64,000 nt of DNA. It comes from Roseicyclus mahoneyensis (GTDB lineage Bacteria > Pseudomonadota > Alphaproteobacteria > Rhodobacterales > Rhodobacteraceae). The stretch lies in assembly GCF_003148775.1 (NCBI RefSeq), contig NZ_QGGW01000001.1, positions 1 through 64,000 of the forward strand. The letters run 5' to 3'. Positions within the stretch are counted from its first letter, which is position 1, and each line of letters opens with the position of its first letter. The translations under genes and the position numbers were made by a program. Under the pieces are notes generated by a model. It made no database searches, was not told the origin of the DNA, and saw nothing but the letters and a program-made list of their open reading frames with translations. Shown piece by piece: positions 23,982 through 49,356 of the stretch.

Positions 23982-25961
23982 ATGACCGCCACGAAAATCC
24001 TCTGGGGCCAGATCCTGGCCGTGGCCCTCATCGTGCTCGTCACGACATGGGGCGCGACGCAGTGGGTGGCCTGGCGGCTGGGGTTTCAGGCGCAGCTGGG
24101 CCCGGCCTGGTTCGACCTGTGGGGTATGCCGGTCTATCCGCCGCCCGCCTTCTTCTGGTGGTGGTACTTTTTCGACGCCTATGCCCGCCGCATCTTCTGG
24201 GAAGGGGCGGCCATCGCGGCCTCGGGCGGGTTCATCTCGATCGCCGTGGCCATCACCATGTCGGTGATCCGCGCGCGCGAGGCGGTTGACCTCGACACCT
24301 ATGGCTCGGCCCGCTGGGCGACCCGGGCCGAGGTGGCCGGTGCGGGGCTGCTGGGCGCCGATGGTGTGGTGCTGGGGCGGCTTGACCGCGATTACCTGCG
24401 CCATGATGGGCCCGAGCATGTGCTCTGCTTCGCGCCGACCCGATCGGGCAAGGGTGTGGGGCTGGTGGTGCCGACGCTGCTGACCTGGCCCGGATCGGCC
24501 ATCGTTCATGACATCAAGGGCGAGAACTGGGACCTGACCGCCGGGTTCCGCGCGCGCCATGGACGGGTGCTGCGCTTCGATCCGACCAGCATGACCTCGG
24601 CCGCCTACAACCCGCTGCTGGAGGTGCGACGCGGCGAATGGGAGGTGCGCGATGTCCAGAACGTGGCCGATGTGCTGGTCGATCCCGAAGGCTCGCTTGA
24701 AAAGCGGAACCATTGGGAAAAGACCTCGCATTCGCTGCTGGTGGGCGCGATCCTGCATGTGCTCTATGCCGAGCCTGACAAGACGCTGGCGGGCGTCGCG
24801 GCTTTCCTGTCCGACCCGCGCCGTCCGATCGAGACGACGCTCGAGGCGATGATGGCCACCCGCCATCTTGGCGAGGCCGGGCCGCATCCGGTGATCGCCT
24901 CGACCGCGCGGGAGCTTCTGAACAAGTCCGACAATGAACGCTCGGGCGTGCTGTCGACGGCCATGTCCTTTCTCGGGCTCTACCGCGACCCGGTCGTCGC
25001 CCATGTGACCCGGCGTTGCGACTGGCGGATCAGCGACCTGATAGGCGGCGCGCAACCCTCGACGCTCTATCTGGTGGTGCCGCCCTCGGACATCTCGCGC
25101 ACCAAGCCGCTGATCCGGCTGGTGCTGAACCAGATCGGCCGCCGCCTGACCGAGGATCTGCAGGACAAGGGGCGGCGCCACCGGGTGCTGATGATGCTGG
25201 ATGAATTCCCGGCGCTGGGGCGGCTGGATTTCTTCGAGAGCGCGCTGGCGTTCATGGCGGGTTACGGGATCAAGAGCTTCCTGATCGCGCAGTCGCTTAA
25301 CCAGATCGAGAAGGCTTATGGCCAGAACAACGCGATCCTCGACAATTGCCATGTGCGGGTGAGCTTCGCCACGAATGATGAGCGCACGGCCAAACGGGTC
25401 TCGGATGCGCTGGGAACGGCGACCGAGATGAAGGCCATGCGCAACTATGCCGGGCACCGGCTGGCGCCCTGGCTCGGCCATCTGATGGTGTCGCGCTCCG
25501 AGACCGCGCGGCAGTTGCTGACCCCGGGCGAGATCATGCAGCTACCGCCCGACGACGAGATCGTCATGGTCGTGGGCCTGCCGCCGATCCGGGCGAAGAA
25601 GGCGCGGTATTTCAAGGACCCGCGCTTCGTGGAGCGGGTCCTGCCGCCGCCCGAGCCTGCGTCCGATGTCGCGCCCGATGCGGATATCTGGACGACCCTG
25701 CCGCCCCCGGTGCCGCCCAAGGCTGCTGCCCGGGCCGCGGCCGAACCCGACGCGGCCAATGCCGGCCTGCGCCGCGAGCCCGACCTGCCGGATCATGTCG
25801 CCGTCACCTCCGAGACCACCAAGGCCCCGACGCGCGAATTCGAGATGATGCTCGACGACAGCCCCGAGGACGCCGTGCGCCAGCGCCATGCGCTGGGGCG
25901 GCAGATGGCGCAGGTCGCCCGCCAGGCCTCGCTCGACCAGAACGACGGCATCCCGCTGTGA
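23982..25961 (+). CDS. traG: Type IV coupling protein TraG/VirD4
   Basis: A 659-aa protein from the ATG at 23982, chosen because it begins just before the first membrane helix. Two N-terminal membrane segments precede the ATPase domain. Walker A is PTRSGKG at residues 152-158, and Walker B is VLMMLDEFPALG. SIVHDIKGENWDLTAGF-like sequence and the MAGYGIKSFLIAQSLNQIEK segment are typical. It links the relaxase-DNA complex to the mating channel. The C-terminal 90 residues are Pro/Ala-rich. Confidence 0.95.
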   Translation: MTATKILWGQILAVALIVLVTTWGATQWVAWRLGFQAQLGPAWFDLWGMPVYPPPAFFWWWYFFDAYARRIFWEGAAIAASGGFISIAVAITMSVIRAREAVDLDTYGSARWATRAEVAGAGLLGADGVVLGRLDRDYLRHDGPEHVLCFAPTRSGKGVGLVVPTLLTWPGSAIVHDIKGENWDLTAGFRARHGRVLRFDPTSMTSAAYNPLLEVRRGEWEVRDVQNVADVLVDPEGSLEKRNHWEKTSHSLLVGAILHVLYAEPDKTLAGVAAFLSDPRRPIETTLEAMMATRHLGEAGPHPVIASTARELLNKSDNERSGVLSTAMSFLGLYRDPVVAHVTRRCDWRISDLIGGAQPSTLYLVVPPSDISRTKPLIRLVLNQIGRRLTEDLQDKGRRHRVLMMLDEFPALGRLDFFESALAFMAGYGIKSFLIAQSLNQIEKAYGQNNAILDNCHVRVSFATNDERTAKRVSDALGTATEMKAMRNYAGHRLAPWLGHLMVSRSETARQLLTPGEIMQLPPDDEIVMVVGLPPIRAKKARYFKDPRFVERVLPPPEPASDVAPDADIWTTLPPPVPPKAAARAAAEPDAANAGLRREPDLPDHVAVTSETTKAPTREFEMMLDDSPEDAVRQRHALGRQMAQVARQASLDQNDGIPL

Positions 25962-25968
25962 GGGTCCC

Positions 25969-26376
25969 ATGCGCGACCGCCTGAACCTCTCGCTGCCCGT
26001 CGAGATGATCGGCCGGATCAACGACCTCGCCGACCGCAAGCGCGTGACCCGCTCGGCCGTGGTCGAAGCGGCGGTGGAATCCTTCCTGTCGCCCGATCAC
26101 GCCGACATGCAGGAAGCCGCCCTGACTCGAAGGCTCGACCGCCTCTCCCGCCAGATCGCCCGGCTGGAACGCGACCAGCGCATCACCACCGAGACCTTGG
26201 CCCTCTTCGTGCGCTTCTGGCTGACCGTCACACCCCCGATCCCACCAGAGGACCAGGCCACCGCCCAGGCCAAGGGCCGCGAGCGGTTCGAAGGCTTCGT
26301 CGACGCCCTGGGCAAGCGCGTGCAGCAGGGGCGCGGGCTCGTGGAGGAAGTGGTGGGGGATCAAACGACGAATTGA
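25969..26376 (+). CDS. CopG-like ribbon-helix-helix protein
   Basis: A 135-aa protein with an N-terminal ribbon-helix-helix (residues 1-45: RLNLSLPVEMIGRINDLADR, TRSAVVEAAVESFL) and a long helical C-terminus (MQEAALTRRLDRLSRQIARL). In related elements this gene sits between traG and trbB as a transfer-operon regulator. Here trbB is 13.6 kb away because a defence island lies in between. TTGAT-GG-ATCAA (26373-26384) at its 3' end is a possible binding site. Confidence 0.85.
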   Translation: MRDRLNLSLPVEMIGRINDLADRKRVTRSAVVEAAVESFLSPDHADMQEAALTRRLDRLSRQIARLERDQRITTETLALFVRFWLTVTPPIPPEDQATAQAKGRERFEGFVDALGKRVQQGRGLVEEVVGDQTTN

Positions 26377-26505: not shown

Positions 26506-29500
26506 ATGACAGGACTCGAGGAGATCAAGAACGGTGCCCACCTGAGGGGCATTGTGCCAGGTCAACCCGTCGAGGTTGTTTCCGTCGAATGGATCGGGGA
26601 TCAGGCGATCAACCTAGTCTATCGCGTGCCAGGAGGTGGTGTTGTTGAAACCACTCTTTATCGCGACGACCAGGCCCGAATTGAACTCGAGACTCGTGGA
26701 CGCGCATGGTCGTTCGATGCGGATGGCGACTTGCTCCGACTGGTGACGGAGGCTAATCGGATCAAGTTGGCGCACTACTTCGACCCTTATCTCGCTATTC
26801 ACACCAGCTTGGTCGATCCGCTTCCTCACCAGATTTCCGCCGTCTACGGCGAGATGCTGCCGCGTCAGCCGCTGCGCTTCTTGTTGGCGGATGACCCAGG
26901 GGCCGGAAAGACCATCATGGCGGGCCTGTTGATCAAGGAGTTGATCGCTCGAAGCGATCTTGAGCGCTGCCTTGTTGTTGCGCCCGGCAGTCTCGTCGAG
27001 CAGTGGCAGGACGAGCTCGGAGAGAAATTCGGATTAGAATTCGATATCCTCACCCGGGACATGATCGAGAACTCCCGATCGGGAAATCCATTTAGCGACC
27101 GCAGCCGGTTGATAGCTCGGCTGGACGTCCTGGCAAGGAACGAGGAGCTGCAGGACAAGCTGGCACAGGCGGCGGAGTGGGATCTGATCATCTGTGACGA
27201 AGCGCACCGCATGTCCGCGACCTACTTCGGCGGTGAAGCCAAGTACACCAAGCGGTATCGTGTCGGTCAGAAGCTTGGCGAGGCGTGTCGTCATCTGCTC
27301 TTGATGTCGGCGACCCCGCACAATGGGCATGAGCAGGACTTTCAACTGTTCATGGCGCTGCTGGATGGTGACCGGTTCGAGGGCCGGTTCCGTGACGGCG
27401 TCCATTATGCCGATACGGCTGACATGATGCGGCGCCTGACGAAAGAGGAACTGCTGCGTTTCGATGGGCGCCCGCTGTTCCCAGAGCGCCGGGCCTACAC
27501 GGTCAAGTACGAGCTCTCGTCTGAGGAAGCGGGGCTTTATGCTGCAGTGACCGAGTACGTCCGCAATGAAATGAACCGCGTCCAGCGCTTCGCTGCCGAT
27601 GACGGCAAGAAGCGGAACAACGTGGGGTTTGCCCTTCAGATTTTGCAGCGTCGCTTGGCTTCGTCACCTGCAGCGATCTATCAGTCTTTGAAGCGACGCC
27701 GCGAACGCTTGGAAACAGAGCTGGCTGAGGCGCGGCTAATGGTTCGTGGCAAACGCTCCGGTTTCGATCTCTCTGACATGCCAGATGACCTGCTGCAGAA
27801 CATCGAGGAATTTGGCCAGGACGAAATCGACGACATCGAGGATCGGATTTCTACCACCGCGACCACTGCAGAAACGGTCGATCAGTTGGCGCTCGAGGTG
27901 GAAACCCTCCAAAGTCTCGAACGCATGGCCCTAGGCGTTCTCAGCTCCGGCCAGGACACCAAGTGGTCGCAGCTCAACCGCATCCTCGATGATGAGCTGA
28001 TGGTCGATTCCCACGGCAACCGTCGCAAGCTCATCATCTTCACCGAGCCGAAGGACACCCTCTACTACCTGCATGATCGCGTGAGGTCGCGCCTAGGCCG
28101 TGCCGATGCGGTCGAGGTGATCCATGGCGGAGTGTCCCGCGAGGATCGGAGGAAGATCGTCGAACGGTTCATGCAGGACCGGGACATGCTGGTGCTGATT
28201 GCCAACGACGCGGCTGGTGAAGGTGTGAACCTCCAGCGTGGCCACCTGATGGTGAACTACGACCTCCCCTGGAACCCGAACAAGATCGAGCAGCGGTTCG
28301 GCCGTATCCACCGGATCGGCCAGACCGAGGTGTGCCACCTCTGGAACCTCGTCGCGGCGGATACGCGCGAGGGCGAGGTCTACGCTCGGCTCCTGGAAAA
28401 GCTGGAGGCGGCGCGCGAGGCGCTAGGCGGGCGGGTCTACGACGTCCTTGGCGAGCTGTTCGACGGCACGGCGCTAAAGGATCTCTTGTTCGAGGCGATC
28501 CAGTACGGTGAGCAACCCGATGTGAAGGCCAGGCTGTTCCAGGCTGTCGATGGGGCCGTCGATCAGCAGCATCTCTTGGACCTTCTGGCGCGTCGCGCGC
28601 TGACCAACGATACGATGCCAGCTGCCAAAGTGCAGGAAATCCGCATCGACATGGAACGCGCCGAGGCTCAGCGCCTGCAGCCGCACCATATCCAGAGCTT
28701 CTTCGTCGAGGCGTTCAAGCGCCTCGGTGGTCAGATCAAGCCGCGGGAAGATGGGCGTTGGGAGATCACCCATGTTCCGGTCAGCATCCGCGAACGTGAC
28801 CGGCAAATCGGGACGGGCTCTCCGGTCCAGAAGAAGTACGAACGCATCTGCTTCGAGAAGGGCAAGGTCAACCAGCAGCCGGTGGCGACCTTCGTCTGCC
28901 CGGGGCACCCTCTGCTGGAAGCTGTCATCAGCATCGTGCGTGAACAGCACGATCACCTGATGAAGCAGGGTGCCGTCATGGTCGATGAAACCGACCATGG
29001 CCAGGACCTGTCGGCCATCTTCCTTCTGGAACACAGCATCCAGGACGGTCGCCCGACCAGTACCGGTAAGCCCCACGTCATCTCGGAGAAGCTGCAGTTC
29101 GCCTCGATCGACAAGGCAGGGAAAGCCACAAATGCGGGGATCGCCCCGCACCTGAACCTTCGACCTGCAACGGTCGAGGAAATCGAATTGGCTGCAGACA
29201 AGCTGCACCAGGACTGGTTGCGAAACGATCTGGAGAAGGCTGCGATCCGCTTCGCTACCGTCGATCTCGCCCAGAGCCATGTGGCCGAAGTGAAGGCAAG
29301 ACGCCTGCCTGAGGTCGCCAAGGTCGAGCAGGAGGTGAAGGCCCGTCTCAAGAAGGAGATCAACTTCTGGGACAACCGGGCCGCCGAGCTGCGCGAGGAT
29401 GAAAAGGCCGGGAAGAAGACCCGCCTGAACTGGCAGAATGCAGAGCGCAGGGCCGAAGACCTGGCCGACCGGCTGAAACGCCGGATGGAACTGCTGGAGA

Positions 29501-30015
29501 AGGAGCGCTTCATCTCCGCCCAGCCGCCGCGGGTGCGGGGTGGCATGGTCGTCGTGCCGAAGGGGTTGCTGCTGGCAAAGGCTGCCGCCGCAACTGGGGC
29601 CAAGCCCGGCGCATTTGCCGAAGACCCGGAGGCCCGGCGGATCAGCGAATTGAAGGCTATGGAGGCGGTCATCAAGGCGGAGCGGGCGCTGGGCAATGAG
29701 CCGCTCGATGTGTCGGCGCAGAAGGTGGGCTTCGACATCGCTTCCTTTGATCCCCGCTCCGGACATTTGCGGTTCATCGAGGTCAAGGGTCGTATCGACG
29801 GCGCCGACACCGTCATGCTGACCCGTCAGGAGATCATCACCTCGCTGCACGAACCTGAAAAGTACATCCTGGCTATTGTCCAGATCGAGAGTGGCTACGC
29901 GCAGGAGCCACGGTATGTCAGGGGGGCGCTCTCGGACCACGAACCCTCGTTCGAACATACAGCGATCCAGTTCAATTTAAAGCGCCTGCTGGAGCGGGCA
30001 GAGGTGCCAAATTGA
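26506..30015 (+). CDS. SNF2/DEAD-type helicase with C-terminal DUF3883 (Hma-like helicase)
   Basis: About 1,170 aa (ATG at 26506, or 26491). Superfamily 2 motifs are complete: Walker A DDPGAGKTIMAG near residue 135, DEAH in LIICDEAHRMSA near 235, SATPHNGHEQDF, and motif VI QRFGRIHRIGQTE near 600. The C-terminal 110 residues (VGFDIASFDPRSGHLRFIEV, KGRIDGADTVMLTRQE) match DUF3883, a PD-(D/E)XK-like nuclease-fold domain. It is the first gene of a helicase, unknown, DUF1156 methylase, DUF499 ATPase set, and would act as the DNA-translocating part of an anti-phage system. DISARM DrmD proteins are similar, but the DISARM partners drmA, drmB and drmC are absent. Confidence 0.85.
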   Translation: MTGLEEIKNGAHLRGIVPGQPVEVVSVEWIGDQAINLVYRVPGGGVVETTLYRDDQARIELETRGRAWSFDADGDLLRLVTEANRIKLAHYFDPYLAIHTSLVDPLPHQISAVYGEMLPRQPLRFLLADDPGAGKTIMAGLLIKELIARSDLERCLVVAPGSLVEQWQDELGEKFGLEFDILTRDMIENSRSGNPFSDRSRLIARLDVLARNEELQDKLAQAAEWDLIICDEAHRMSATYFGGEAKYTKRYRVGQKLGEACRHLLLMSATPHNGHEQDFQLFMALLDGDRFEGRFRDGVHYADTADMMRRLTKEELLRFDGRPLFPERRAYTVKYELSSEEAGLYAAVTEYVRNEMNRVQRFAADDGKKRNNVGFALQILQRRLASSPAAIYQSLKRRRERLETELAEARLMVRGKRSGFDLSDMPDDLLQNIEEFGQDEIDDIEDRISTTATTAETVDQLALEVETLQSLERMALGVLSSGQDTKWSQLNRILDDELMVDSHGNRRKLIIFTEPKDTLYYLHDRVRSRLGRADAVEVIHGGVSREDRRKIVERFMQDRDMLVLIANDAAGEGVNLQRGHLMVNYDLPWNPNKIEQRFGRIHRIGQTEVCHLWNLVAADTREGEVYARLLEKLEAAREALGGRVYDVLGELFDGTALKDLLFEAIQYGEQPDVKARLFQAVDGAVDQQHLLDLLARRALTNDTMPAAKVQEIRIDMERAEAQRLQPHHIQSFFVEAFKRLGGQIKPREDGRWEITHVPVSIRERDRQIGTGSPVQKKYERICFEKGKVNQQPVATFVCPGHPLLEAVISIVREQHDHLMKQGAVMVDETDHGQDLSAIFLLEHSIQDGRPTSTGKPHVISEKLQFASIDKAGKATNAGIAPHLNLRPATVEEIELAADKLHQDWLRNDLEKAAIRFATVDLAQSHVAEVKARRLPEVAKVEQEVKARLKKEINFWDNRAAELREDEKAGKKTRLNWQNAERRAEDLADRLKRRMELLEKERFISAQPPRVRGGMVVVPKGLLLAKAAAATGAKPGAFAEDPEARRISELKAMEAVIKAERALGNEPLDVSAQKVGFDIASFDPRSGHLRFIEVKGRIDGADTVMLTRQEIITSLHEPEKYILAIVQIESGYAQEPRYVRGALSDHEPSFEHTAIQFNLKRLLERAEVPN

Positions 30016-31739
30016 TGGCCACAAAGGGCGACAGATCTTCCGAGCATGCTGTGCTTGAACTTAGCGGGCAGTATATCTGGCCTGATGCCAGGCACCTCCT
30101 GAACGAACTACTGGAACCTGTGCTACCTGTATTCCGCCACGCTATTGCTGGAGCGAGGGGCCTATTCGGTGTTGTTTCCGGGCTCCACGACTCAGGGATC
30201 GACTTCCTCGAGGAATGCCTTTCGAACGAAGATGCTTTATCCCTCCGTCTCGTCATTGCGGTTTGGCCGGCTTGCCCGACAACCAGTTCAGACCTTCATC
30301 GACTACTCGCACTTCAAGAACGCTTTCGCGAGCGGTTGCAAATAAGGGTGCAGACATCCAACAGCGTCCTTGACCATGGCTTGACAATTCTCTGTGTTTC
30401 AGGGGCGAAGCCGAAAGATGCTTGCCTGATCCTCGGCAAGATGAATGACCTCGGGACAAATCTCGCAGAAATGGGCGAGGGCGGGGTACTTCGTGCCGAT
30501 GCTATCACGGTGGAGGCTTTTCACCGCCGCTTCCTCTGGCGATGGTCGCAGTCGGCAGATCTGAACGCACCAGGAGCGGCGGAGCTTCCTGCACTATCGC
30601 TGCCCGAAGGTTCGCGTGAGGCAGCTGCACTTTGGGCAGACTATAACAGAGCCCTTGCGAGGGGCGTCCAGGCAACGCCCGATCTGCGCGCCCACGTCGA
30701 TCCGGAGACGGGAGAAGTCACCCTCATCGGCGAGGATGGTCAGCCTGTCGAAGATCCCATTGCCGAGCTCGGATTCGCAAAGATGGACCCAATCGCCATG
30801 TGGGTCGCCAACTTGTACGAAGGCGGGCAGCTTGTCAGCATTGACAAAACCAGTCGAATTCCTCCCGTGGACGTCCCGGTTGATCCGGCAGCTTTTGGCG
30901 ACCGATCTGACATGTCCCGAGGGGACGTGTCCCGTAAGGTCAGCATGCGGGCGTCGGTCATAAAGGAAGCTGATCTAAAAGAGATCGAGAAGCACCGCAG
31001 TATGGTCAGGACGATCCTAAACCGGTTAAGCTTCAGCTTGGCGGACGGGTTAGGTTGGGTGCCTGACACGGCGCGGGCGCTATTGTCCACCGAACTGCAG
31101 AATGCCGACGCGGCGGGACGTGCCGCTCTGCTGAAGGCGATGGGGGGTGGCACACTGCCCGACATCAATGCCTTCGTCGAATCCCGCAAATCTGACCTGA
31201 CGAAGAGCTTGAAGGAAATGGCATCGGCCCTTGGCGTTCCGGACGCAGATATCAGTGGCATTCTTGAAGCGACGCTAAGCGAGGCAAAGAGACGTCTGGA
31301 GCGGACGAAAGGTGGCAGTCTGTTGCCAACGCTCTCCTGGACGCGCATTTCGTTCTCGGCCGACGAGGACGAGCATGCTTCCCCCTGGGGCCAAGCCGCG
31401 ACCTTCCTGTTTGCAATTGCGCGCTTCCCGCGCAAGGCGATGACGGACGGTTTCTTCATGCGGGGACTGTCATGCAACGTCTTTGATCTGGTCGAGGCGA
31501 TGAACGTCGCAGACGACGACATCTGCCGGGACTTGCGGGCCAGGAACCTGTCTGAGCGTTGCAGAGCAGAGCTTGGGCTCATTGATCGAGTGGCAAGGGA
31601 AGTTGCCGATCCGAAAATGCGCTGCCGCCTATTGCGCCTCGTTCTCGAGGGAAGGGCTAAGGAGATAGATGGGGAGCTGAAAAAACTTGCTGAAGCAAGT
31701 ACTGCCGATCCGACCAACGAAAACAAGAATGCAGAATGA
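30015..31739 (+). CDS. Unrecognised 574-aa protein embedded in the defence operon
   Basis: The gene begins at an ATG overlapping the helicase TGA and lies 36 bases before the methylase gene, so it is part of the operon. I do not recognise a family. Residues 1-170 look like an alpha/beta domain (HSGIDFLEECL-like sequence, then LRLVIAVWPACPTTSSDLHR) that is loosely reminiscent of phospholipase-D-like folds but lacks an HxK motif. The middle is charged, and residues 300-460 are helical (KHRSMVRTILNRLSFSLADG). No membrane segment is seen. GC content is lower than in the flanking transfer genes. It may be a helper or effector specific to this version of the system. Confidence 0.65.
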   Translation: MATKGDRSSEHAVLELSGQYIWPDARHLLNELLEPVLPVFRHAIAGARGLFGVVSGLHDSGIDFLEECLSNEDALSLRLVIAVWPACPTTSSDLHRLLALQERFRERLQIRVQTSNSVLDHGLTILCVSGAKPKDACLILGKMNDLGTNLAEMGEGGVLRADAITVEAFHRRFLWRWSQSADLNAPGAAELPALSLPEGSREAAALWADYNRALARGVQATPDLRAHVDPETGEVTLIGEDGQPVEDPIAELGFAKMDPIAMWVANLYEGGQLVSIDKTSRIPPVDVPVDPAAFGDRSDMSRGDVSRKVSMRASVIKEADLKEIEKHRSMVRTILNRLSFSLADGLGWVPDTARALLSTELQNADAAGRAALLKAMGGGTLPDINAFVESRKSDLTKSLKEMASALGVPDADISGILEATLSEAKRRLERTKGGSLLPTLSWTRISFSADEDEHASPWGQAATFLFAIARFPRKAMTDGFFMRGLSCNVFDLVEAMNVADDDICRDLRARNLSERCRAELGLIDRVAREVADPKMRCRLLRLVLEGRAKEIDGELKKLAEASTADPTNENKNAE

Positions 31740-31775
31740 ACGGAGTGCCGGTCAATTTCCGGCCAACAGGTGAAC

Positions 31776-34577
31776 ATGACCCAACCCTACAAGAAGAAAC
31801 TGATCGAAGTCGCCATCCCGCTTGAGGCCATCAACGCCGCCTCGGCGCGGGAGAAGTCGATCCGGCATGGGCACCCCTCCACCCTGCATCTGTGGTGGGC
31901 GCGGCGGCCGTTGGCGGCGTGTCGGGCGGTGCTGTTTGCGCAGCTGGTCGACGATCCCTCCAGCCATCCCGACCAGTTCCCCACCCATGAGGATCAGGAG
32001 CGCGAGCGGCAGCGGTTGTTTGCCATCATCGAAGACCTGGTGAAGTGGGAGAACTCGACCAACGAAGAGGTGCTGGAACGCGCGCGGGCGGAAATCCGGC
32101 GGTCTTGCGGTGGGGTGCTGCCGCCGGTCTACGACCCGTTCTCGGGCGGCGGTTCGATCCCGCTCGAGGCGCAGCGGCTGGGCCTGCCTGCCTATGGGTC
32201 CGACCTGAACCCGGTGGCGGTGATGATCGGCAAAGCGATGATCGAGATTCCGCCGAAATTCAAGGACATGCCCCCCATCCACCCCGGCATCAAGGAGCGG
32301 TCGTTCTACCGCAACGCCGAAGGGCTGGCCGAGGATGTGAAATACTACGGCGAATGGATGCGTGAAAAGGCGTGGGAGCGCATCGGGCATCTTTACCCGC
32401 AGGTGGACCTGCCGAAGGAGTATGGGGGCTGCAAAGCGACGGTGATCGCCTGGATCTGGGCACGGACGGTGCCGAGCCCGGACCCGGCCTTTGCGGATGT
32501 GCAGGTGCCATTGGCGTCCACTTTCCTGCTCAGCGCCAAGAAGGGCCAAGAGGCTTGGGTTGAGCCACTTGTTGATAAGGCAGCGAAAGCGATTACCTAT
32601 CGCATCCGCCTTAAAGGCACGAAGGACGAGATCGATCGTGCGAAGTCGGGGACAGCCGCCGGCAAGAGACACGGGTTTATCTGTCCGTTCTCTGGGGCGC
32701 CAATTTCTTACGACTATATTCGGAAGGCTGGTCAGAACGGGGAAATGAGGGCGGTGATGCTCTCAATCATCGCTGAAGGTCCGCGGGGGCGAATCTTTCT
32801 TGATCCTGATCGGTCACATGGCGAAATAGCAGGTTCTGCCATTCCTGATTGGCGCCCAGAGACGAAATTGCACGGAAAGACTCGCGTTAATGTTTCGAAT
32901 TATGGATTAGACACATACGACGACCTATTCTTGGATCGCCAACTTGTCGCGTTAAACACGTTCGGCGATCTCGTCCAAGAAGCACGAGTTCTGGCGCTGC
33001 AAGACGCACAAGCCAACTTCGAGACGGATGATGGGGCGCGACTGCGCGATGGTGGCGTTGGTGCAGCAGCCTATGCTGATGCTCTTGCCGTGTATCTTGC
33101 ATTCGTTGTCAGTAGCCAGGCTGACCGAATGAGCACAATCTGCACTTGGGACGCTGGTGGGCCAACCTGGGGAACAAAAACACGCAACACTTTCTCGCGC
33201 CAAGCAATTCCGATGTCGTGGGATTTCACAGAGACCAACCCGTTCTCGACACAGTCGGGTAGCTTTGGGAACTCGCTTGACTATACGTCAAAAGGTGTCA
33301 TCAGCAATGCAGCCAATAAGGGAACCATCACCCAAATTGATGCTCGCCATATCGACCCCGGTCGCCAGTGCGTAATTTCGACAGATCCTCCATACTATGA
33401 CAACATTGGCTATGCCGATCTTTCTGACTTCTTCTATGTTTGGCTCAAGCGAATTTGCGGCGAAGTTTTCCCAGAGATATTTGGCTTGATTGCTACGCCA
33501 AAGGCCGATGAGCTGATTGCTGCCCCCTATCGGCACGGCGGCAAGGATGAGGCCGAAGCATACTTTCTCAACGGTATGACTCAGGCCATTTCTCGAATGG
33601 TGGCTCTTTCGCCAGATGGGTTTCCCGCGACCATCTACTATGCGTTCAAGCAGAGCGAAATTGCGGATGAAGGCATCAGTTCGACTGGGTGGGCGACTTT
33701 CTTGCAGGCCGTAATTGAGGCTGGCTTTGCGGTAGTAGGCACTTGGCCGATGCGTACAGAGCTTGCAAATCGACTGATCGCATCTGGCACCAACGCCCTC
33801 GCCAACTCGGTCGTTCTCGTCTGCCGCAAAAAGGAAGCCTCGGCCGAGGTCATCACCCGGGCCGAGTTCATCCGCGCCCTGAAACGCGAACTGCCCCCGG
33901 CCATCGGGGAGCTTCAGGCCGCCAACATCGCCCCGGCCGACATGCCGCAATCGGCCATCGGCCCCGGCATGGGCGTCTTCTCGCGCTACAAGGCGGTGCT
34001 GGAATCCGACGACAGCCCGATGAGCGTGAAGGCCGCGCTGCAGCTGATCAACCGCGAGCTCGACGAATACCTCGGCGGTATCCAGGGCGAGTTCGACGCC
34101 GATACCCGTTTTGCCATCACCTGGTTCGAACAGAACGGGCTGAAGGCGGGCGACTATGGCACGGCGAACAACATCGCCACCGCCCGCGGCATCTCGGTCG
34201 AAAGCGTGAAGCATGCCGGGATCGTAGAAAGCGCGGCCGGAAAGGTGCGCATCCTGAAGCGCGACGAGATGGATGCCGAGTGGGAGCCGGATGCCGACAC
34301 CCACCTGACCATCTGGGAATGCTGCCAGCATCTGGTGCGGTTGCACGAGAAATACGGGATCGGCTATGAGGCGGCGGTGATGTTGAAGAAGTACGGCGCC
34401 AAGGCCGGCGATGTCCGCGACCTGGCCTATGTGCTGTATAGCATCTGCGAAAAGCGGGGCGAGGCGAAGGAGGCGACCGCCTACAACGCGCTGATCGCGG
34501 ACTGGACCGACCTGACCCGCGAAGCCGCCACCGCGCCGCTGTCGAACAAGAGCGGCCAGATGAGATTTGAGGTTTAG
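31776..34577 (+). CDS. DUF1156 DNA adenine/cytosine-N methyltransferase (Hma-like methylase)
   Basis: A 933-aa protein (ATG at 31776; GTG at 31770 possible). The DUF1156 signature HPSTLHLWWARRPLAACRAV is near residue 32. The SAM-binding motif DPFSGGGSIPLEAQRLG is near 120, and the catalytic motif DPPYYDNIGYADL near 536 identifies an amino-methyltransferase. It probably marks host DNA so that the helicase and ATPase attack only unmodified DNA. The segment from about 32550 to 33800, which includes the DPPY motif, has clearly lower GC than both ends of the gene, which suggests recombination within the gene. Confidence 0.88.
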   Translation: MTQPYKKKLIEVAIPLEAINAASAREKSIRHGHPSTLHLWWARRPLAACRAVLFAQLVDDPSSHPDQFPTHEDQERERQRLFAIIEDLVKWENSTNEEVLERARAEIRRSCGGVLPPVYDPFSGGGSIPLEAQRLGLPAYGSDLNPVAVMIGKAMIEIPPKFKDMPPIHPGIKERSFYRNAEGLAEDVKYYGEWMREKAWERIGHLYPQVDLPKEYGGCKATVIAWIWARTVPSPDPAFADVQVPLASTFLLSAKKGQEAWVEPLVDKAAKAITYRIRLKGTKDEIDRAKSGTAAGKRHGFICPFSGAPISYDYIRKAGQNGEMRAVMLSIIAEGPRGRIFLDPDRSHGEIAGSAIPDWRPETKLHGKTRVNVSNYGLDTYDDLFLDRQLVALNTFGDLVQEARVLALQDAQANFETDDGARLRDGGVGAAAYADALAVYLAFVVSSQADRMSTICTWDAGGPTWGTKTRNTFSRQAIPMSWDFTETNPFSTQSGSFGNSLDYTSKGVISNAANKGTITQIDARHIDPGRQCVISTDPPYYDNIGYADLSDFFYVWLKRICGEVFPEIFGLIATPKADELIAAPYRHGGKDEAEAYFLNGMTQAISRMVALSPDGFPATIYYAFKQSEIADEGISSTGWATFLQAVIEAGFAVVGTWPMRTELANRLIASGTNALANSVVLVCRKKEASAEVITRAEFIRALKRELPPAIGELQAANIAPADMPQSAIGPGMGVFSRYKAVLESDDSPMSVKAALQLINRELDEYLGGIQGEFDADTRFAITWFEQNGLKAGDYGTANNIATARGISVESVKHAGIVESAAGKVRILKRDEMDAEWEPDADTHLTIWECCQHLVRLHEKYGIGYEAAVMLKKYGAKAGDVRDLAYVLYSICEKRGEAKEATAYNALIADWTDLTREAATAPLSNKSGQMRFEV

Positions 34578-34588
34578 GGGGTAGCACC

Positions 34589-37500
34589 ATGGCAAAAAGC
34601 ACGCGCCAATATGTGTTCGAGGGTATGGAGCTGCTGCCCGAGGCGCTGATCCCCTTTGTCGAACGGCGGCTCGAGGCCTCGTTGCAGGGCCATTGGCAAG
34701 TCCAGGTGGTGGAGAAGCTGCCCGGGCTGCGTCCGGACTCGAATGGCAAAATCGTGTGGGACCAGTCTGCGCTCCTGAACGCGATGGACCGGTTCTGGAT
34801 GGATGCCTTCAAGGCGGTTCTGGGGCGTGCCGAGCGATCGATCGTCAACGAGCTGGTTGATGTGCGCAACAAGCTCTCGCATAACGGCACCTTCACCTAT
34901 GACGATGCCGAACGTTCGCTCGACAGCATGCGGCGGTTGATGGAGGCGATCAGCGCCTCGGACGTGGCCGACCAGCTGGGCAAGATGCGCGACACGATCC
35001 TGCGCACCAAGTTCACGGAATTGCAGCGCAACGAGGAGCGGAAGAAGAGCCAGCGGTCCGACATCTCCGTCGAGACTGTGGCGGGGCTGTTGCCCTGGCG
35101 CGAGGTGGTGGAGCCGCATCGTGACGTGGCGACGGGTGAGTTCCAGCAGGCCGAGTTCGCGGCCGACCTTGCCAAGGTCCACAACGGCAGCGCGCCGTCG
35201 GAATATCGCAACCCAACCGAGTTCTTCTCGCGCACCTATTTGACCTCGGGTCTGTCGACCCTGCTGATCGGCGCGGCGAAGCGGCTGTCGGGCACCGGCG
35301 GCGATCCAGTGGTGGAGCTGCAGACCAACTTCGGCGGCGGCAAGACCCACTCGATGCTGGCGCTCTACCACATGGCGGGCGGCACGCCGGTCGAGGATTT
35401 GCCGGGGCTCGACCAGCTGCTGTCGCGCGAAGGGCTGACCGTGCCGGGCAAGGTGAACCGGGCAGTGTTGGTGGGCACGTCCTATGGGCCCTCGGATGCG
35501 GCCAAGCGGCAGAAGGACTACGGCCGTCCGATCCGCACGACCTGGGGGGAACTGGCGTTCCAGCTTGGCGGTGAAGCAGGCTATGCGCTGGTGGCTGAAA
35601 ATGACGCCAATGGCATCGCGCCGGGGTCAAACCTGCTGGAAGAACTATTCCGGCAATGTGCCCCGTCGCTGATCCTGATCGACGAATGGGTCGCTTACCT
35701 GCGCCAGATCTACAAGGTCGAGGGGCTGCCGTCGGGGTCGTTCGACTCGAACCTGTCGTTTGTTCAGTCGCTGACCGAAGCTGTGAAGGCCAGCCCGGGA
35801 ACGCTGCTGGTTGCGTCTCTGCCCGCGTCGCAGATCGAAGTTGGCGGCGAGGGCGGCCAGGAGGCCCTGTCTCGCCTGAAGCAGACCTTCAGCCGGGTCG
35901 AAACCGGCTGGCGACCGGCTGACCAGGAGGAAAGCTACGAGATCGTCCGTCGGCGCCTGTTCAAGGAAATCCCAGGCGACAAGTTCCACCACCGCGACAA
36001 CACACTGAAGCAGTTCGCGAAGATGTATCGCGACAGCCCGAACGAATTCCCGCAGAACTGCGAGGGCGAGGATTATCGGCGGAAGCTTGAAAAGGCGTAT
36101 CCGATTCATCCAGAACTGTTCGATCAGCTCTACACCAGCTGGGGTTCTCTGGAAAAATTCCAGCGCACCCGCGGCGTGCTGCGGTTGATGGCACAGGTGA
36201 TCCACGAGCTGTGGATGAACAACGATCCCTCGGTGATAATCATGCCGGGCAGCGTTTCCATCAGCTCGGCGCGAGTAGAACCGGAGTTGCTGCATTACCT
36301 CGACGTGTCATGGCAGTCGATCATCGCAGGCGATGTCGATGGACCGAACTCCACACCCTATCGGATCGACCAGTCGGCCCCAAACCTCAACCGCTATTCG
36401 GCTACCCGCCGCGTGGCCCGGGCGATCTTCATGGGAACTGCACCGACCCATGGGCAAGATAACAAGGGCCTCGATGATCGCCAGATCAATCTGGGTGTAG
36501 TGCAGCCCGGTGAACGTCCTGCCATCTTCGGCGATGCCCTGCGCCGCCTCGCGAATAATGCCAGGTTCATGCATGGCGATCTCGGCCGCTACTGGTATTC
36601 GATGTCCGCGAGCCTCAATCGGCTTGCGGCCGATCGGGCCGGACAGATCGAAGAGCCGCTGGTCCTTTTGGAAATCGACAAGGCGCTGGCGACCTACATC
36701 AACGGCTTGGGCGACCGCGGTCATTTCGACACCGTGCAAGTCTCGCCAAGCAGTTCCGCAGATGTCCCCGACGAAGCCGGTGGCGTTCGTGCCGTCGTGC
36801 TTGGCGTGGCCCACCCGCACACCGGTCGCGAGAATTCCGATGCTATGGCAGAAGCCAAGGATATCCTGCTTCAGCGCGGCTCTACACCGCGGGTCTATCG
36901 GAACATGCTCGTATTCCTTGCGGCGGAGTCGCGCCAGCTTGATGGGCTGAAGGAGGCCATGCGGTCGTCCCTCGCTTGGGCAGGGATCGTCAAGGACACG
37001 GATCGGCTGAACCTGACCCAGCGCGACAGTGCCCTTGCCAAGGCGAAAGTCGCCGAGGCAGCCGAGACAGTTAAGACACGGCTAAAAGAAACCTGGTGCT
37101 ACCTGCTCTATCCCATGCAGGATGGCGCCCAGGCGGATGTGGAATGGATCGCATCAAAGGTTCCGGCGCAAGACGGTCTTTTGTCCCGCGCCAGCAAGAA
37201 GCTCGCCAGCGACGAAGGGTTGCTGCCAGAGCTCGGTCCAGCCCGCCTTGACCGGGAGCTTCAAAAGTACATCTGGAACGGCAAGAATCATCTCTCGCTC
37301 AGAGATCTCTGGGAGTACCTGAACCGCTACATCTACCTTCCCCGAGTGAAGGATCGAAACGTCCTGATTAAGGCCGTGCGGGCATCAGTCGGCGCAATGG
37401 TGCCAGGTCCTTTTGCTTATGCAGAGCGGTGGGACGAAAAGAGCGGCCGATACATCGGCCTGGTTCTACAAAACGGCGCCAACGCAGCAGTCGTCATCGA

Positions 37501-37891
37501 TTCAGACAGCCTCATTGTGAAGCCCGAAGTTGCTGAGAGGCAATCCAAAGAAACGACCGCAGTTGCTGAGAACCCAGTCGATCCAGATCAGACTGCAATC
37601 AAACAGGCAGCTGAACAAACTGGACTTCAGCAGACGGTAACTGTCGTTCAGCCAGAGCGGGAACCGACCCGCTTTATCGGTACCGTCATGATTTCTGCAG
37701 ACCGTCCGGCGCATGAAATGCGCCAAATCGTCGAAGCGATCATTGAGCAGTTAACGATCCTGCCGGGCAGTGAAGTGTCGCTTAAGCTTGAAATCGATGC
37801 CGATGTTCCGAATGGTCTCGACCGAAGCAAGGTTCGTACACTGCTCGAGAACGCCAACACATTGGGTTTCATCGATAAAGTGATCAAGTGA
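34589..37891 (+). CDS. DUF499 AAA-type ATPase with N-terminal Swt1-like HEPN domain (Hma-like ATPase)
   Basis: An 1,100-aa protein. The N-terminal 120 residues resemble Swt1-family HEPN domains, with the R-x4-H motif in RNKLSHNGTF near residue 93. The ATPase part has Walker A NFGGGKTHSML near 247 and Walker B LILIDEWVAYL near 361, typical of DUF499. HEPN domains often cleave RNA, so this protein could act as the effector; that is inference. It starts 11 bases after the methylase gene and ends the operon. GC content drops in the last 400 bases. Confidence 0.85.
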   Translation: MAKSTRQYVFEGMELLPEALIPFVERRLEASLQGHWQVQVVEKLPGLRPDSNGKIVWDQSALLNAMDRFWMDAFKAVLGRAERSIVNELVDVRNKLSHNGTFTYDDAERSLDSMRRLMEAISASDVADQLGKMRDTILRTKFTELQRNEERKKSQRSDISVETVAGLLPWREVVEPHRDVATGEFQQAEFAADLAKVHNGSAPSEYRNPTEFFSRTYLTSGLSTLLIGAAKRLSGTGGDPVVELQTNFGGGKTHSMLALYHMAGGTPVEDLPGLDQLLSREGLTVPGKVNRAVLVGTSYGPSDAAKRQKDYGRPIRTTWGELAFQLGGEAGYALVAENDANGIAPGSNLLEELFRQCAPSLILIDEWVAYLRQIYKVEGLPSGSFDSNLSFVQSLTEAVKASPGTLLVASLPASQIEVGGEGGQEALSRLKQTFSRVETGWRPADQEESYEIVRRRLFKEIPGDKFHHRDNTLKQFAKMYRDSPNEFPQNCEGEDYRRKLEKAYPIHPELFDQLYTSWGSLEKFQRTRGVLRLMAQVIHELWMNNDPSVIIMPGSVSISSARVEPELLHYLDVSWQSIIAGDVDGPNSTPYRIDQSAPNLNRYSATRRVARAIFMGTAPTHGQDNKGLDDRQINLGVVQPGERPAIFGDALRRLANNARFMHGDLGRYWYSMSASLNRLAADRAGQIEEPLVLLEIDKALATYINGLGDRGHFDTVQVSPSSSADVPDEAGGVRAVVLGVAHPHTGRENSDAMAEAKDILLQRGSTPRVYRNMLVFLAAESRQLDGLKEAMRSSLAWAGIVKDTDRLNLTQRDSALAKAKVAEAAETVKTRLKETWCYLLYPMQDGAQADVEWIASKVPAQDGLLSRASKKLASDEGLLPELGPARLDRELQKYIWNGKNHLSLRDLWEYLNRYIYLPRVKDRNVLIKAVRASVGAMVPGPFAYAERWDEKSGRYIGLVLQNGANAAVVIDSDSLIVKPEVAERQSKETTAVAENPVDPDQTAIKQAAEQTGLQQTVTVVQPEREPTRFIGTVMISADRPAHEMRQIVEAIIEQLTILPGSEVSLKLEIDADVPNGLDRSKVRTLLENANTLGFIDKVIK

Positions 37892-37922: not shown

Positions 37923-38345
37923 TCATTCCATATCCCACGGATTGATCACATCGACCCCGCAGCCGTCGAAGTCCTTGACGTTGCGGGTTGCCACAGGTGC
38001 CCCCGCCGCCTTCGCGATCGCCGCGATCTGGCAGTCAGCCTCGGTGATCGGTCGTCCGGCGGTGCGGCGCATTGCGGCGATTTCGGCATAGGTGCGGGCG
38101 GCCGGGCTGTTGAAGGGGAGCACGCGGTCGGCGAAGTCCTCAGCGATCATACCGTCAAGCGCGGCCTGAAGCCGGTCGCGCCGCTGCCCCCCTGGCATGA
38201 TGGCGACCCCGGTGCGCAGTTCGGCTTCGGTCACGGCCGAGATGAACAGGGCAGTGGCGTCCTGACGACCGAACCAATCCAACACTTCCTGCGCCGGATT
38301 GGCGCGCATCAGTTCGGAGATGACGTTGGTATCAAGCAGGATCAT
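37923..38345 (-). CDS. PIN-domain toxin, VapC/FitB type
   Basis: A 140-aa PIN ribonuclease. The acidic active-site residues are visible: Asp5 in LLDTNVISELM, Glu in VTEAELRTG, Asp in ITEADCQIAAIA and Asp in TRNVKDFDGCG. It is encoded three bases after an Arc-type antitoxin, on the strand opposite to the defence operon with which it converges. Confidence 0.92.
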   Translation of the reverse strand: MILLDTNVISELMRANPAQEVLDWFGRQDATALFISAVTEAELRTGVAIMPGGQRRDRLQAALDGMIAEDFADRVLPFNSPAARTYAEIAAMRRTAGRPITEADCQIAAIAKAAGAPVATRNVKDFDGCGVDVINPWDME

Positions 38346-38348
38346 CGG

Positions 38349-38591
38349 TCAGTCGAAATCCGGTGGGGCGCGCATCGGGCTGCGGGGCGGGATTTCCAGA
38401 TTGACCCCATCGATTGCGGCGAACCGCTCATGGATCGCCCGACCTAGGTTCTTCGGGACGGTGGGCAGCGCTACGACCTGGCGCAGGATTTCGCGCGCCT
38501 CCTCCTCCATCGACCGGCCATGTTCGGCCGCCCGCACACGGAGGCGGCGCTTCACCTCGTCGTCGAGGTTGCGGATCGTGATACTGGCCAT
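38349..38591 (-). CDS. FitA-like ribbon-helix-helix antitoxin
   Basis: An 80-aa protein with the FitA/Arc N-terminus (SITIRNLDDEVKRRLRVRAA, then EHGRSMEEEAREILRQ) and a short C-terminal toxin-binding tail. It pairs with the PIN toxin directly downstream. The region upstream of its ATG contains AT-rich sequence at 38605-38640 where the promoter should lie. Confidence 0.9.
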   Translation of the reverse strand: MASITIRNLDDEVKRRLRVRAAEHGRSMEEEAREILRQVVALPTVPKNLGRAIHERFAAIDGVNLEIPPRSPMRAPPDFD

Positions 38592-38697: not shown

Positions 38698-39387
38698 CTA
38701 CTGCACCCGCCACACCTCCCCATCATCCAGCCGTTTGACGTAATCCACCGCGGAGCCGTCCCAGTGGTAGGCGAAGTGCCCGCCCTGCGTCGGGATCGGG
38801 ATCACGTCGGGCCAGAAGACGGCGATGCAGTGACCGCCCGGGTAACGGACGCTGGGCCATGTGATTCCGTTCGATCCGGCGGCGCGGCGCTCGGCGCCGA
38901 AGATCTGCGAGGGGCGATAGTCGTCGGGATGGAGCAGATCGGCGCGGCCGTTGGCGTCGTCGAGATCGGCATCGATGGTGCCGATCAGCTCGCGGAACAG
39001 CGAGGTCCAGCCGGGGGCCTCCTTCGTGGCGCGCATGAAACGGGCGTGGTGGTGGATGGTTTCGGCGATGGCCACCTCGGTGCGGTCGCCCGCGTAGTAG
39101 AGGCCGAAGCTGCCGTCCGAGAACCGCCCTGGCCGCAGGGGCGAGCAGTGGACGAAGGGTGCCATGACCCAGCTCGCACCCGACCCGGTCACACGGCGCC
39201 CGATCGGCACCTTGGAGAGGTCACCGATGCTGTCGCGGATGCGCGGGTTGAACTTGGACTCGGCCGAGGCCAGCGCTTCCCAATCCGCCGGATCGGCGAT
39301 GTCCTCGAAGAGGTCGATGGGCGGGTGGATCGAGCGGATGATGCGGACGGTGCGGGGCCAGGTTACGCGAACAGTGGGCACCGTCAC
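38698..39387 (-). CDS. RES-domain toxin
   Basis: A 229-aa protein of the RES family, whose known members degrade NAD+. Family features are FGLYYAGDRTEVAIAETIHH, with the Tyr/Arg/Glu set, and the SPLRPGRFSDGS loop. The ATG overlaps the stop of the Xre/MbcA-type antitoxin gene by four bases. It faces left, between the FitAB pair and trbB. Confidence 0.88.
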   Translation of the reverse strand: MTVPTVRVTWPRTVRIIRSIHPPIDLFEDIADPADWEALASAESKFNPRIRDSIGDLSKVPIGRRVTGSGASWVMAPFVHCSPLRPGRFSDGSFGLYYAGDRTEVAIAETIHHHARFMRATKEAPGWTSLFRELIGTIDADLDDANGRADLLHPDDYRPSQIFGAERRAAGSNGITWPSVRYPGGHCIAVFWPDVIPIPTQGGHFAYHWDGSAVDYVKRLDDGEVWRVQ

Positions 39388-39797
39388 CAGGCCCCCCGCT
39401 CGGCATCGAGATAGGCGCGCAGGTCGATCAGGTCGGTGATCTCGCCGCGCATCATGATGTCCAGCGCGCTGCGCCCATCGAAAGCCTCGCTGGGCTTGCG
39501 GATCCAGGCATAGCCGCGGGCGGGGTCGGTGAAGATGGTGCGCAGCGCCTTGTGAATCCCCATCAGGATCGCCATGCGCGCCCGCAGATCACGGTCGATG
39601 CGCCCGATGTCGCCGGTCTTCCACCGCGCCCATGTGCGCGGCGCCATGTCGCCCAGCAGCGTGCGCGCCTCGGCATCGCTAAGACCCCAGGCGCGGAACA
39701 GGTTGACCGTGGCCCGCGCCAGCGCTGCGGCCTCGGCATCCGTGATCACGGGATGGTCGGGGCGGGCGGTGATCGGCTGGACGGTGGCGAACTGCAT
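39384..39797 (-). CDS. Xre/MbcA/ParS-type antitoxin of the RES pair
   Basis: A 137-aa protein. The N-terminal part is a helix-turn-helix (LFRAWGLSDAEARTLLGDMA, RTWARWKTGDIGRIDRDLRA), and the C-terminal part is the toxin-binding domain (RTIFTDPARGYAWIRKPSEA, DIMMRGEITDLIDLRAYLD) typical of DUF2384-type antitoxins. The ATG at 39797 has an AAAGGAG ribosome binding site; the much longer frame upstream covers the promoter. Confidence 0.88.
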   Translation of the reverse strand: MQFATVQPITARPDHPVITDAEAAALARATVNLFRAWGLSDAEARTLLGDMAPRTWARWKTGDIGRIDRDLRARMAILMGIHKALRTIFTDPARGYAWIRKPSEAFDGRSALDIMMRGEITDLIDLRAYLDAERGAW

Positions 39798-39807
39798 GGG
39801 CGTCTCC

Positions 39808-40029: not shown

Positions 40030-41028
40030 ATGGCAGAGGTTGAACGGAGGCCGCAGGCGGGCGAGCGGGGGGCGCGGATGCTGCGCACCGCGCTCGGCCC
40101 CGTCATCGCGCGGGCTCTCGAAGACCCCATGACCCTTGAGGTCATGCTCAACCCCGACGGGCGGCTCTGGATCGACCGCGCCACCGAGGGGCTGTCCGAC
40201 AGCGGCGCCACGCTCTCGCCCGAGGATGGCGAGCGGATCGTGCGGCTGGTGGCCCATCATGTCGGGGCCGAGGTCCATGCCGCGCGGCCCCGGGTCTCAG
40301 CCGAACTGCCCGGCACGGGCGAGCGCTTCGAGGGGCTGCTGCCGCCCGTTGTCACGGCACCCTGCTTCGCGATCCGAAAGCCCGCCGTCGCGGTGTTCCG
40401 GCTGTCCGAATACATCGCCGCCGGGATCATGACCGAGGCGCAGGCCAGCGCCCTGCGCGACGGGGTCGCCGCGCGCGCCAATATCCTCGTCGCGGGGGGC
40501 ACCTCGACCGGAAAGACCACGCTGACCAATGCGCTGCTGGCCGAGGTCGCGCAGACCGCCGACCGCGTCGTGATCATCGAGGACACGCGCGAGCTGCAAT
40601 GCGCCGCCCCGAACCTCGTCGCGCTGCGTACCAAGGACGGGGTGGCAACTCTGTCCGATCTCGTCCGGTCCTCGCTGCGCCTGCGCCCCGACCGCATCCC
40701 CATCGGCGAGGTGCGCGGGGCCGAGGCGCTGGACCTGCTGAAGGCCTGGGGTACCGGCCATCCGGGCGGGATCGGGACGATCCATGCAGGCTCTGCGCTC
40801 GGTGCCCTGCGCCGGATGGAGCAGCTGATCCAGGAGGCCGTGGTCACCGTGCCGCGCGCCCTGATCGCCGAGACCATCGATCTGATCGCCGTCCTGTCAG
40901 GGCGCGGGGCGGCGCGCCGCCTCACCGAACTGGCCCGCGTCACCGGCCTCGGCCCCGCGGGCGATTATCACCTCACCCCGGCCGCTGCCCCGCCTGCGGC
41001 CCCCGAACCATCAGGAGACACCCCATGA
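40030..41028 (+). CDS. trbB: Conjugal transfer ATPase TrbB (VirB11 family)
   Basis: A 332-aa cytoplasmic hexameric ATPase that powers the mating-pair apparatus. Walker [10 protein letters not shown] is at residues 156-164. The Asp box [13 protein letters not shown] and the His box [15 protein letters not shown] are typical VirB11 motifs. It starts the trb operon. The ATG at 40030 has a GGAGCGGGG ribosome binding site. Confidence 0.95.
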
Positions 41029-41357
41029 CCCGAACCCTCGATCACCTGCGCAGGCAAGCCGCCCATGCTGCCACTTTCGCCTGCGTCAGCCTGATGCTCG
41101 CCACGCCCGCTCGCGCGGCGGGCTCGTCCATGCCCTGGGAGGCGCCGCTCGAGGCGATCCTGCAATCGATCGAGGGTCCGGTCGCCAAGATCATCGCGGT
41201 GATCATCATCATCGTGACCGGGCTGACGCTGGCCTTCGGCGACACGTCAGGCGGCTTCCGGCGGCTGATCCAGATCGTCTTCGGCATCTCCATCGCCTTC
41301 GCGGCGAGTTCCTTCTTCCTGAGCTTCTTCAGCTTCGGCGGCGGGGCGGTGTTCTGA
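41025..41357 (+). CDS. trbC: Conjugal pilin TrbC (VirB2 family)
   Basis: A 110-aa prepilin. The signal peptide ends near ATPARAAGS, followed by two hydrophobic helices (IIAVIIIIVTGLTLAFG and ISIAFAASSFFLSFFSF). It would be processed by the TraF peptidase encoded at 19138. Start and stop overlap both neighbours (ATGA and TGATG). Confidence 0.93.
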   Translation: MTRTLDHLRRQAAHAATFACVSLMLATPARAAGSSMPWEAPLEAILQSIEGPVAKIIAVIIIIVTGLTLAFGDTSGGFRRLIQIVFGISIAFAASSFFLSFFSFGGGAVF

Positions 41358-41638
41358 TGGCCGGCGATTTCGAGCAGCTTGATGCCGTCCCCGGCTTCAC
41401 CGTCACGGTCCACCGCGCGCTGACCGAGCCGATCCTGCTCGCAGGTGCCCCGCGCGCCTTCGCGATCCTGAACGGCACGCTTGCGGGTGCCATCGGGCTC
41501 GGGCTGCAGCTCTGGGCTGCGGGCCTCGCGATCTGGCTGATCGGGCATCTGCTGGCCGTCTGGGCCGCCAGGCGCGATCCGCTCTTTGTCGAGGTCGGAC
41601 GGCGGCACCTGCGGCTACCCGGCCATCTGGACGTCTGA
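41357..41638 (+). CDS. trbD: Conjugal transfer protein TrbD (VirB3 family)
   Basis: A 93-aa inner-membrane protein with a short N-terminal segment (GFTVTVHRALTEPILLAGAP) and two membrane helices, the VirB3 plan. The ATG overlaps the trbC stop by one base. Confidence 0.92.
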   Translation: MAGDFEQLDAVPGFTVTVHRALTEPILLAGAPRAFAILNGTLAGAIGLGLQLWAAGLAIWLIGHLLAVWAARRDPLFVEVGRRHLRLPGHLDV

Positions 41639-41648
41639 GGGCACCGCC

Positions 41649-49355: not shown

Positions 49356-49356
49356 G

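Follow-up and report, generated by a model that had tools for sequence, protein, structure and literature searches.

The first 64,000 nucleotides of contig NZ_QGGW01000001.1 of Roseicyclus mahoneyensis (hereafter the window, meaning this whole stretch) contain a complete and probably active Hma operon, a restriction-like system also termed Type-1 BREX-related (BREX, bacteriophage exclusion). The operon is carried as cargo between the copG and trbB genes of a conjugative element and encloses an accessory gene, ORF2, between hmaA and hmaB. Judging from related loci, the gene at this junction and the recognition segment of the methylase gene hmaB have each likely been exchanged. Two things are most worth keeping: the orphan junction gene ORF2, and two relatives, L093 and L031, that separate the junction gene from the recognition segment.

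The Hma operon of the window

Four long open reading frames (ORFs) lie between copG and trbB, all on the plus strand. The first is hmaA (26506..30015, 1169 aa), coding for a SNF2-type helicase with a C-terminal NOV_C/DUF3883 nuclease domain of the PD-(D/E)XK type. It is followed by ORF2 (30015..31739, 574 aa), the gene embedded at the hmaA–hmaB junction, which has no recognised family, and by hmaB (31770..34577, 935 aa, GTG start), a DUF1156 amino-methyltransferase gene with a variable central segment (32576..33380, about codons 270–537). The last is hmaC (34589..37891, 1100 aa), in which a HEPN_Swt1 domain is fused to a DUF499 AAA+ ATPase. A longer ATG start is available for hmaA at 26491, the annotated start of a 90% identical homologue (L032) corresponding to 26506, and hmaB has an alternative ATG at 31776. 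Successive genes are −1, 30 (36 when the ATG of hmaB is used) and 11 bp apart; the ATG of ORF2 and the stop of hmaA overlap by one base.

The PADLOC profiles of HmaA, HmaB and HmaC match with 1589, 1208 and 960 bits, the last over residues 167–1094. Pfam (E 0.001) identifies SNF2, Helicase_C and NOV_C (70.1 bits) in HmaA, DUF1156 in HmaB, and HEPN_Swt1 at 12–122 followed by DUF499 in HmaC. Among 15 aligned rows, the window and 14 relatives, the helicase motifs GAGKT and DEAH are present in 14, the exception being the hmaA row of L106, which is incomplete as extracted. The nuclease motif EVK of HmaA, the methyl-transfer motifs DPFSGG and DPPY of HmaB, and the R-x4-H (HEPN RNase), GGGKT (ATP binding) and IDEW of HmaC are found in all 15, window included. 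The locus has the features expected of Hma, or Type-1 BREX-related (BR), systems: adjacent and co-directional genes for HmaA, HmaB and HmaC, a helicase nuclease domain with its motif, and DUF1156 with amino-methylase motifs. The N-terminal TUDOR domain of Type-1 BR is not among the Pfam matches of HmaA at E 0.001.

Other systems fall short of their NCBIfam cut-offs. For Type-2 BR (PLD/HKD helicase, DUF3780), DUF1156 scores 132.8 bits against 1000, DUF499 161.1 against 1200 and the PLD-helicase 159.1 against 1100; for DISARM (defence island system associated with restriction–modification), DrmD scores 386.4 bits against 610. No PglZ, as in BREX or Type-3 BR, is among the PADLOC, Pfam and NCBIfam matches listed for the genes at 26491–39800, which for HmaA are the best 25 of 52 in PADLOC and the best 25 of 26 in NCBIfam. 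Several claims of a first-pass annotation made from the letters alone are borne out: four co-directional genes with gaps of 0–36 bases, the domains listed above with the DPPY motif, and membership in Hma. No key active-site motif is lost in alignment.

Replacement at the hmaA–hmaB junction and in the centre of hmaB

L093 carries the same element in another genus of the same family. By blastn it is 91.8% identical to the window over 23895–30004, 89.6% over 31775–32575 and 93.5% over 33381–40090, where the compared stretch ends, and just two stretches are replaced, one in the centre of hmaB and one that holds the junction gene. The latter reaches from 11 bp inside the 3′ end of hmaA to 5 bp into hmaB. 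The HmaA and HmaC proteins of the two loci are 97% and 98% identical.

The hmaB centre also varies among the near loci (hmaA at least 70% identical). In 14 of the 15 it has no blastn match to the window, though both sides match; the exception is L031, with an identity of 86%. Over 15 rows without L031, mean amino acid identity is 41% in hmaB codons 270–540, whereas the two halves of hmaA reach 84% and 78% (the averages along hmaB retain values of L104 beyond a frame change near codon 605, where they are meaningless). L031 is also absent from the fourfold-site analysis, the trees and the first permutation test reported below. Because the centre lies between two methylase motifs, and a recognition insert is described for this methylase family in a recent survey (PMC12839542), it is presumed to be the target-recognition region.

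The junction was surveyed in 53 stretches, window included; 35 were chosen among HmaC matches, mostly full-length and away from contig ends, and 17 were read of 97 plasmid records with hmaB-like genes. Few genomes came from searches around other centres, one of which yielded the distant places L142–L145. L034 and G235 are the same locus. The tally uses the 43 stretches with hmaA, hmaB and hmaC on one strand, ten having been dropped (nine without one of the three genes, one with an inverted gene), and these divide into 16 near, 23 intermediate and 4 distant loci. A gap of at least 300 bp separates hmaA from hmaB in 14 of the near loci (always at least 393 bp), 13 of the intermediate and 1 of the distant, the value of L108 in the last group being an artefact of a second helicase match. 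Between hmaB and hmaC such a gap occurs in none of the near loci, 7 of the intermediate and 2 of the distant; in the near group the distance is about 10–14 bp in 15 loci, and the decayed L031 gives no meaningful value.

Thirteen of the 14 filled near junctions contain a nameable gene, of at least nine kinds. A 131-aa family is found in L092, L093 and L094, and a 163-aa protein in L031, L033 and L034 (in L034 by eye), accompanied in L033 and L034 by a 1400-aa sacsin-like ATPase; among the junction genes of L033 is a TmtA-like one. L095 has an ASCH protein, L032, L096, L097, L098 and L104 each have a single protein without Pfam match, and the window has ORF2. The 393-bp junction of L090 has no convincing plus-strand ORF, and the junctions of L091 and L106 are empty. 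Eight of the ten near-group junction proteins scanned have no Pfam match. Elsewhere the junction holds PtuA/PtuB (Septu) in L101, PtuA in L113 and homologous genes in L036, which fits the association of Hma with Septu type I noted in the PADLOC paper, according to which the two often occur together (PMC8565338). It also holds AriA/AriB-like genes in L035, an NYN gene in L114, a DUF4145 gene in L117 and, in L122 (4140–8487), three consecutive genes that belong to two PADLOC candidate systems (PDC-S06, PDC-M38A/B). The hmaB–hmaC junction is filled as well (xisH/xisI and others, a four-helix-bundle protein) in L133, L138 and L035, two of them on plasmids of cyanobacteria and one on a plasmid of Chloroflexota. 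The repeats found at the junction are short and imperfect, and so give no sign of a dedicated recombinase site.

ORF2 has the composition of a coding frame: G+C is 0.65/0.46/0.63 by codon position, and the second position is the lowest in 12 of 13 intervals along the gene. At the third position it has 0.63, compared with 0.71–0.75 in the hma genes and 0.87 in traG and trbB. At E 0.001 the protein has no family in PADLOC, Pfam or NCBIfam, and PHROGs gives none either; PADLOC has no match even at E 10, and Pfam nothing above its cut-off, the E 10 listing included. Its best PDB match has E 0.46, and it has no match among plasmids or phages. Scans of genome and viral contigs were empty; since they look for exact matches to short peptides, distant relatives would escape them. 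In three overlapping draws of 101, 347 and 341 genomes, each including the genome of the window, E 0.001 returns ORF2 itself and nothing else. Seven weaker matches in the 347-genome draw (E ≤ 0.05; 12.3–17.3 bits, best E 0.0026) were judged to be chance, because once realigned they cover different short parts of ORF2. Two further candidates were set aside: DUF5691, a fragment match at E 0.0033 with 17.4 bits against a cut-off of 27, is too weak, and a worn phospholipase-D-like N-terminus, an impression gained by eye, has no corresponding Pfam match at E 10. ORF2 is a candidate new accessory defence gene.

The operon shows signs of recombination. Identity at fourfold-degenerate sites, computed over the 97 of 105 pairs with diverged hmaA, is 29–43% along hmaA and 53% in its last 14 codons; in hmaB it is 56–67% in codons 1–160, 25–31% in 241–680 and 55–58% in 721–840; in hmaC it is 40–55% in codons 1–320 and 26–34% beyond 680. 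The trees differ in the placement of L093: in hmaA it joins the window (100/100) and grouping with L032 is rejected (p-AU 5e-5, approximately unbiased test), whereas in the 5′ part of hmaB the grouping with L032 is preferred (96/93) and that with the window is rejected (p-AU 0.012). L091, with its empty junction, is close to its sisters L092, L094 and L095 in hmaA, the 3′ part of hmaB and hmaC, and far from them in the 5′ part of hmaB; its hmaB centre is 33–37% identical to theirs.

Proposed mechanism and alternative readings

From the gene families we infer the following biochemical steps, and with them the defence activity and the function of ORF2. HmaB would methylate adenines and so mark self DNA, at a target site presumably set by its central variable segment. 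The ATPase HmaC and the translocase-nuclease HmaA would act on unmarked incoming DNA, and the HEPN domain of HmaC may be an RNase held in reserve. ORF2 would be translated from the same message as the operon, and is most likely an accessory defence effector working on its own, like the embedded genes HEC-05 and HEC-06 discussed below. Recombination would swap the junction gene and the hmaB recognition segment each by itself, leaving the remaining operon and its carrier in place.

That the two stretches instead travel together is suggested by L093, which differs from the window in both and in little else. ORF2 would then be a partner of the recognition segment (an adaptor, a reader or an effector tuned to the methylation site), exchanged with it as a cassette. 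When L031 is left out, hmaB centres are indeed more similar among loci that have their junction gene in common (51.8 versus 41.2%, permutation p 0.0018; in a second alignment 51.5 versus 41.5%, p 0.0037), and in L091 it is the 5′ part and the centre of hmaB that deviate from the sisters, although a grouping with them in the 5′ part is not rejected by the approximately unbiased test (p 0.21). However, inclusion of L031 reduces the association to 47.1 versus 41.8% (p 0.064), and the test ignores ancestry and involves two gene families. L031 (11690–16840), on a plasmid of Rhizobium johnstonii, is a decayed locus in which hmaA and hmaC are partial and hmaB lies in two frames. Of all pairs, it and the window have the most alike centres (86%) but different junction genes. 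L033 and L034 have the junction gene of L031, but their centres are just 38–39% like that of L031. Because L031 breaks the pairing in both directions, we favour separate change of the junction gene and the centre, a preference that hinges on this one worn copy. The presence of Septu and other self-sufficient systems in the same junction also argues against a joint cassette, which we regard as quite unlikely. A passenger without defence role, such as a decaying or selfish gene settled in a recombination-prone junction, is an unlikely explanation of ORF2 too. The searches found no accepted relative, and the third-position G+C, lower than in the hma genes, marks a foreign origin; but the frame is open over 574 codons, starts on the stop of hmaA and keeps its codon-position pattern, and several junction genes of other loci are recognised defence genes.

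Several points weigh against the main reading. Gaps of at least 300 bp between hmaB and hmaC occur in 9 of the 43 loci, and therefore outside the near group the hmaA–hmaB junction is favoured for embedded genes, not exclusive. The function of ORF2 is argued from its position alone. The p-AU of 0.012 is one of nine such tests, for which the clades were selected once a first FastTree tree had been seen, and in the tree of the hmaB 5′ part internal support is low and the branches of L091 and L106 are long. Finally, lower synonymous divergence could partly be constraint. Selection on the sequence itself (messenger structure, an internal promoter or another signal) would explain it in the hmaB 5′ part, where the FastTree tree retains several of the hmaA groups with shorter branches. 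This would leave the conflict between the trees over L093 and L032 unaccounted for, as well as the strong divergence of the 5′ part in the empty-junction loci L091 and L106 and the plain replacement of neighbouring stretches in an element otherwise 90–94% identical; we find it doubtful as the explanation. The first-pass annotation had inferred a mobile, conjugation-borne version of Hma with an unusual HEPN-fused ATPase. The HEPN_Swt1 domain is there, as is the conjugative backbone around the operon, but a 2026 survey reports an N-terminal HEPN in 1370 of 2446 Type-1 taxa (PMC12839542). The fusion is therefore the commoner form, in line with R-x4-H in every aligned row, and that of the window is ordinary; its novelty was rejected. 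Moreover, of the 97 plasmid records with hmaB-like genes, 14 are typed conjugative and 23 mobilizable. A distinct mobile version marked out by the HEPN fusion is highly improbable; the operon is intact and an ordinary representative of a system already known.

If junction gene and recognition segment are indeed exchanged separately, Hma in this branch may, tentatively, be seen as a mobile defence set with combinatorial parts, in which the gene for an embedded weapon and the segment for methylase recognition reassort independently of each other, and ORF2 may be the first member seen there of a new effector family. Self-mark and accessory weapon would then be paired differently in each strain, with helicase, ATPase and carrier constant. 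In the window and L093 nature offers a near-matched pair, the same element with junction gene and methylase centre replaced, and L031 is its complement, with nearly the centre of the window and a different junction gene. With these loci it can be tested directly what fixes the specificity of Hma, and whether an embedded gene works by itself or together with the host operon. The eight near-group junction proteins without Pfam match and ORF2 make a short list of candidates.

The conjugative carrier and known systems

The repA, relaxase, traG, copG and trbB–trbI genes of the element match those of an Indioceanicola profundi plasmid (L146) in tblastn; repA of L146 matches at 17568 of the window, and its parA, the sole parA tried, has no match at E 0.001. 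On the left of the operon lie traG and copG (23982..26376, plus strand; 80% and 66% identity), and on the right trbB-C-D-E-J-K-L-F-G-I with a DUF2274 gene (40030..49560, plus strand). The location in a conjugative element, claimed in the first-pass annotation, is supported by this comparison of the backbone and flanks with related plasmids. The flanking copG and trbB are confirmed, with one correction: the interval between them (26377–40029) includes, after hmaC, two toxin–antitoxin pairs on the minus strand (37923–39800). These are cargo beside Hma, a PIN toxin with a FitA-like RHH antitoxin (37923..38591; PF01850, PF22513), which is inside the stretch common to the window and L093, and a RES toxin with an Xre-MbcA antitoxin (38698..39800; PF08808, PF09722, PF20432).

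Among 509 plasmid records matching traG–copG, six were read for an empty site. In four, copG is followed by trbB at 146–174 bp; in one, trbC comes about 1 kb after copG with no gene listed between, which leaves space for a trbB absent from the listing; and in one, copG is followed by other cargo. Since copG stands directly before trbB in other plasmids, the copG–trbB interval is a true insertion site. In Methylocystis parvus (L150, 8080–13829) the cargo after copG is on the opposite strand and codes for a DUF2235 protein, an AAA ATPase and a DEAD helicase. The stretch between relaxase and traG (22797–23945) has a lower G+C and a 180-aa ORF (23134–23676), and the same interval of L146 holds a nucleotidyltransferase and a phospholipase of CBASS (cyclic oligonucleotide-based antiphage signalling system); it therefore resembles a second site for cargo. 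Immediately beyond the trb operon, on the minus strand, is a further toxin–antitoxin pair, an AbiEii nucleotidyltransferase toxin and an AbiEi antitoxin (49817–51578; PF08843, PF11459, PF17194). Further away, at 2591–9603, genes of a peptide-type ABC transporter precede one for an amidase whose C-terminal domain is that of an allophanate hydrolase.

The order traG then trbBCDEJLFGI found in the window is that of the Tn4371-like integrative and conjugative elements (ICEs), as given in their description, which calls trbK missing (PMC2789088); in the window a TrbK-like piece also matches. Membership of the Tn4371-like ICEs, for which an int gene and an TTTTTCAT attachment site are further criteria, is not claimed.

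In its replaced recognition segment between conserved flanks, hmaB resembles the specificity genes of type I restriction–modification systems. Shuffling of these genes is known in such systems; in hmaB, by contrast, the segment is inside the methylase itself, and the junction gene changes too.

The three-gene Hma system was named by PADLOC in 2021 (PMC8565338), and the 2026 survey calls it "Type-1 BREX-related", a DUF499-centred BR system (PMC12839542). The window shares with it the three proteins, the gene order, the HEPN–DUF499 fusion and the C-terminal nuclease domain of the helicase, and differs in the additional gene between hmaA and hmaB; the survey gives the Type-1 organisation as three genes and notes other nucleases near or in some loci (PMC12839542). 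The first-pass annotation was right that the extra gene is real, and it is the sole odd part of the operon. The mere presence of such a gene is no novelty, as genes embedded between Hma genes, termed Hma-embedded candidates (HEC), and Septu inside Hma are already published (Payne et al. 2024, preprint, as cited in PMC12111858, PMC12988326, PMC11411939 and PMC12255303); HEC-05 and HEC-06 are said in papers citing that work to act on their own. ORF2 lies between Hma genes as they do but, unlike them and the PDC families, has no match in PADLOC, whose library includes HEC and PDC models; the protein itself matches nothing described. A second module nested in a modification-type operon is also reported for tgvAB and DarTG2 (PMC11411939, PMC12255303); in contrast to ORF2, these are in type I restriction–modification operons and belong to known families with shown activity.

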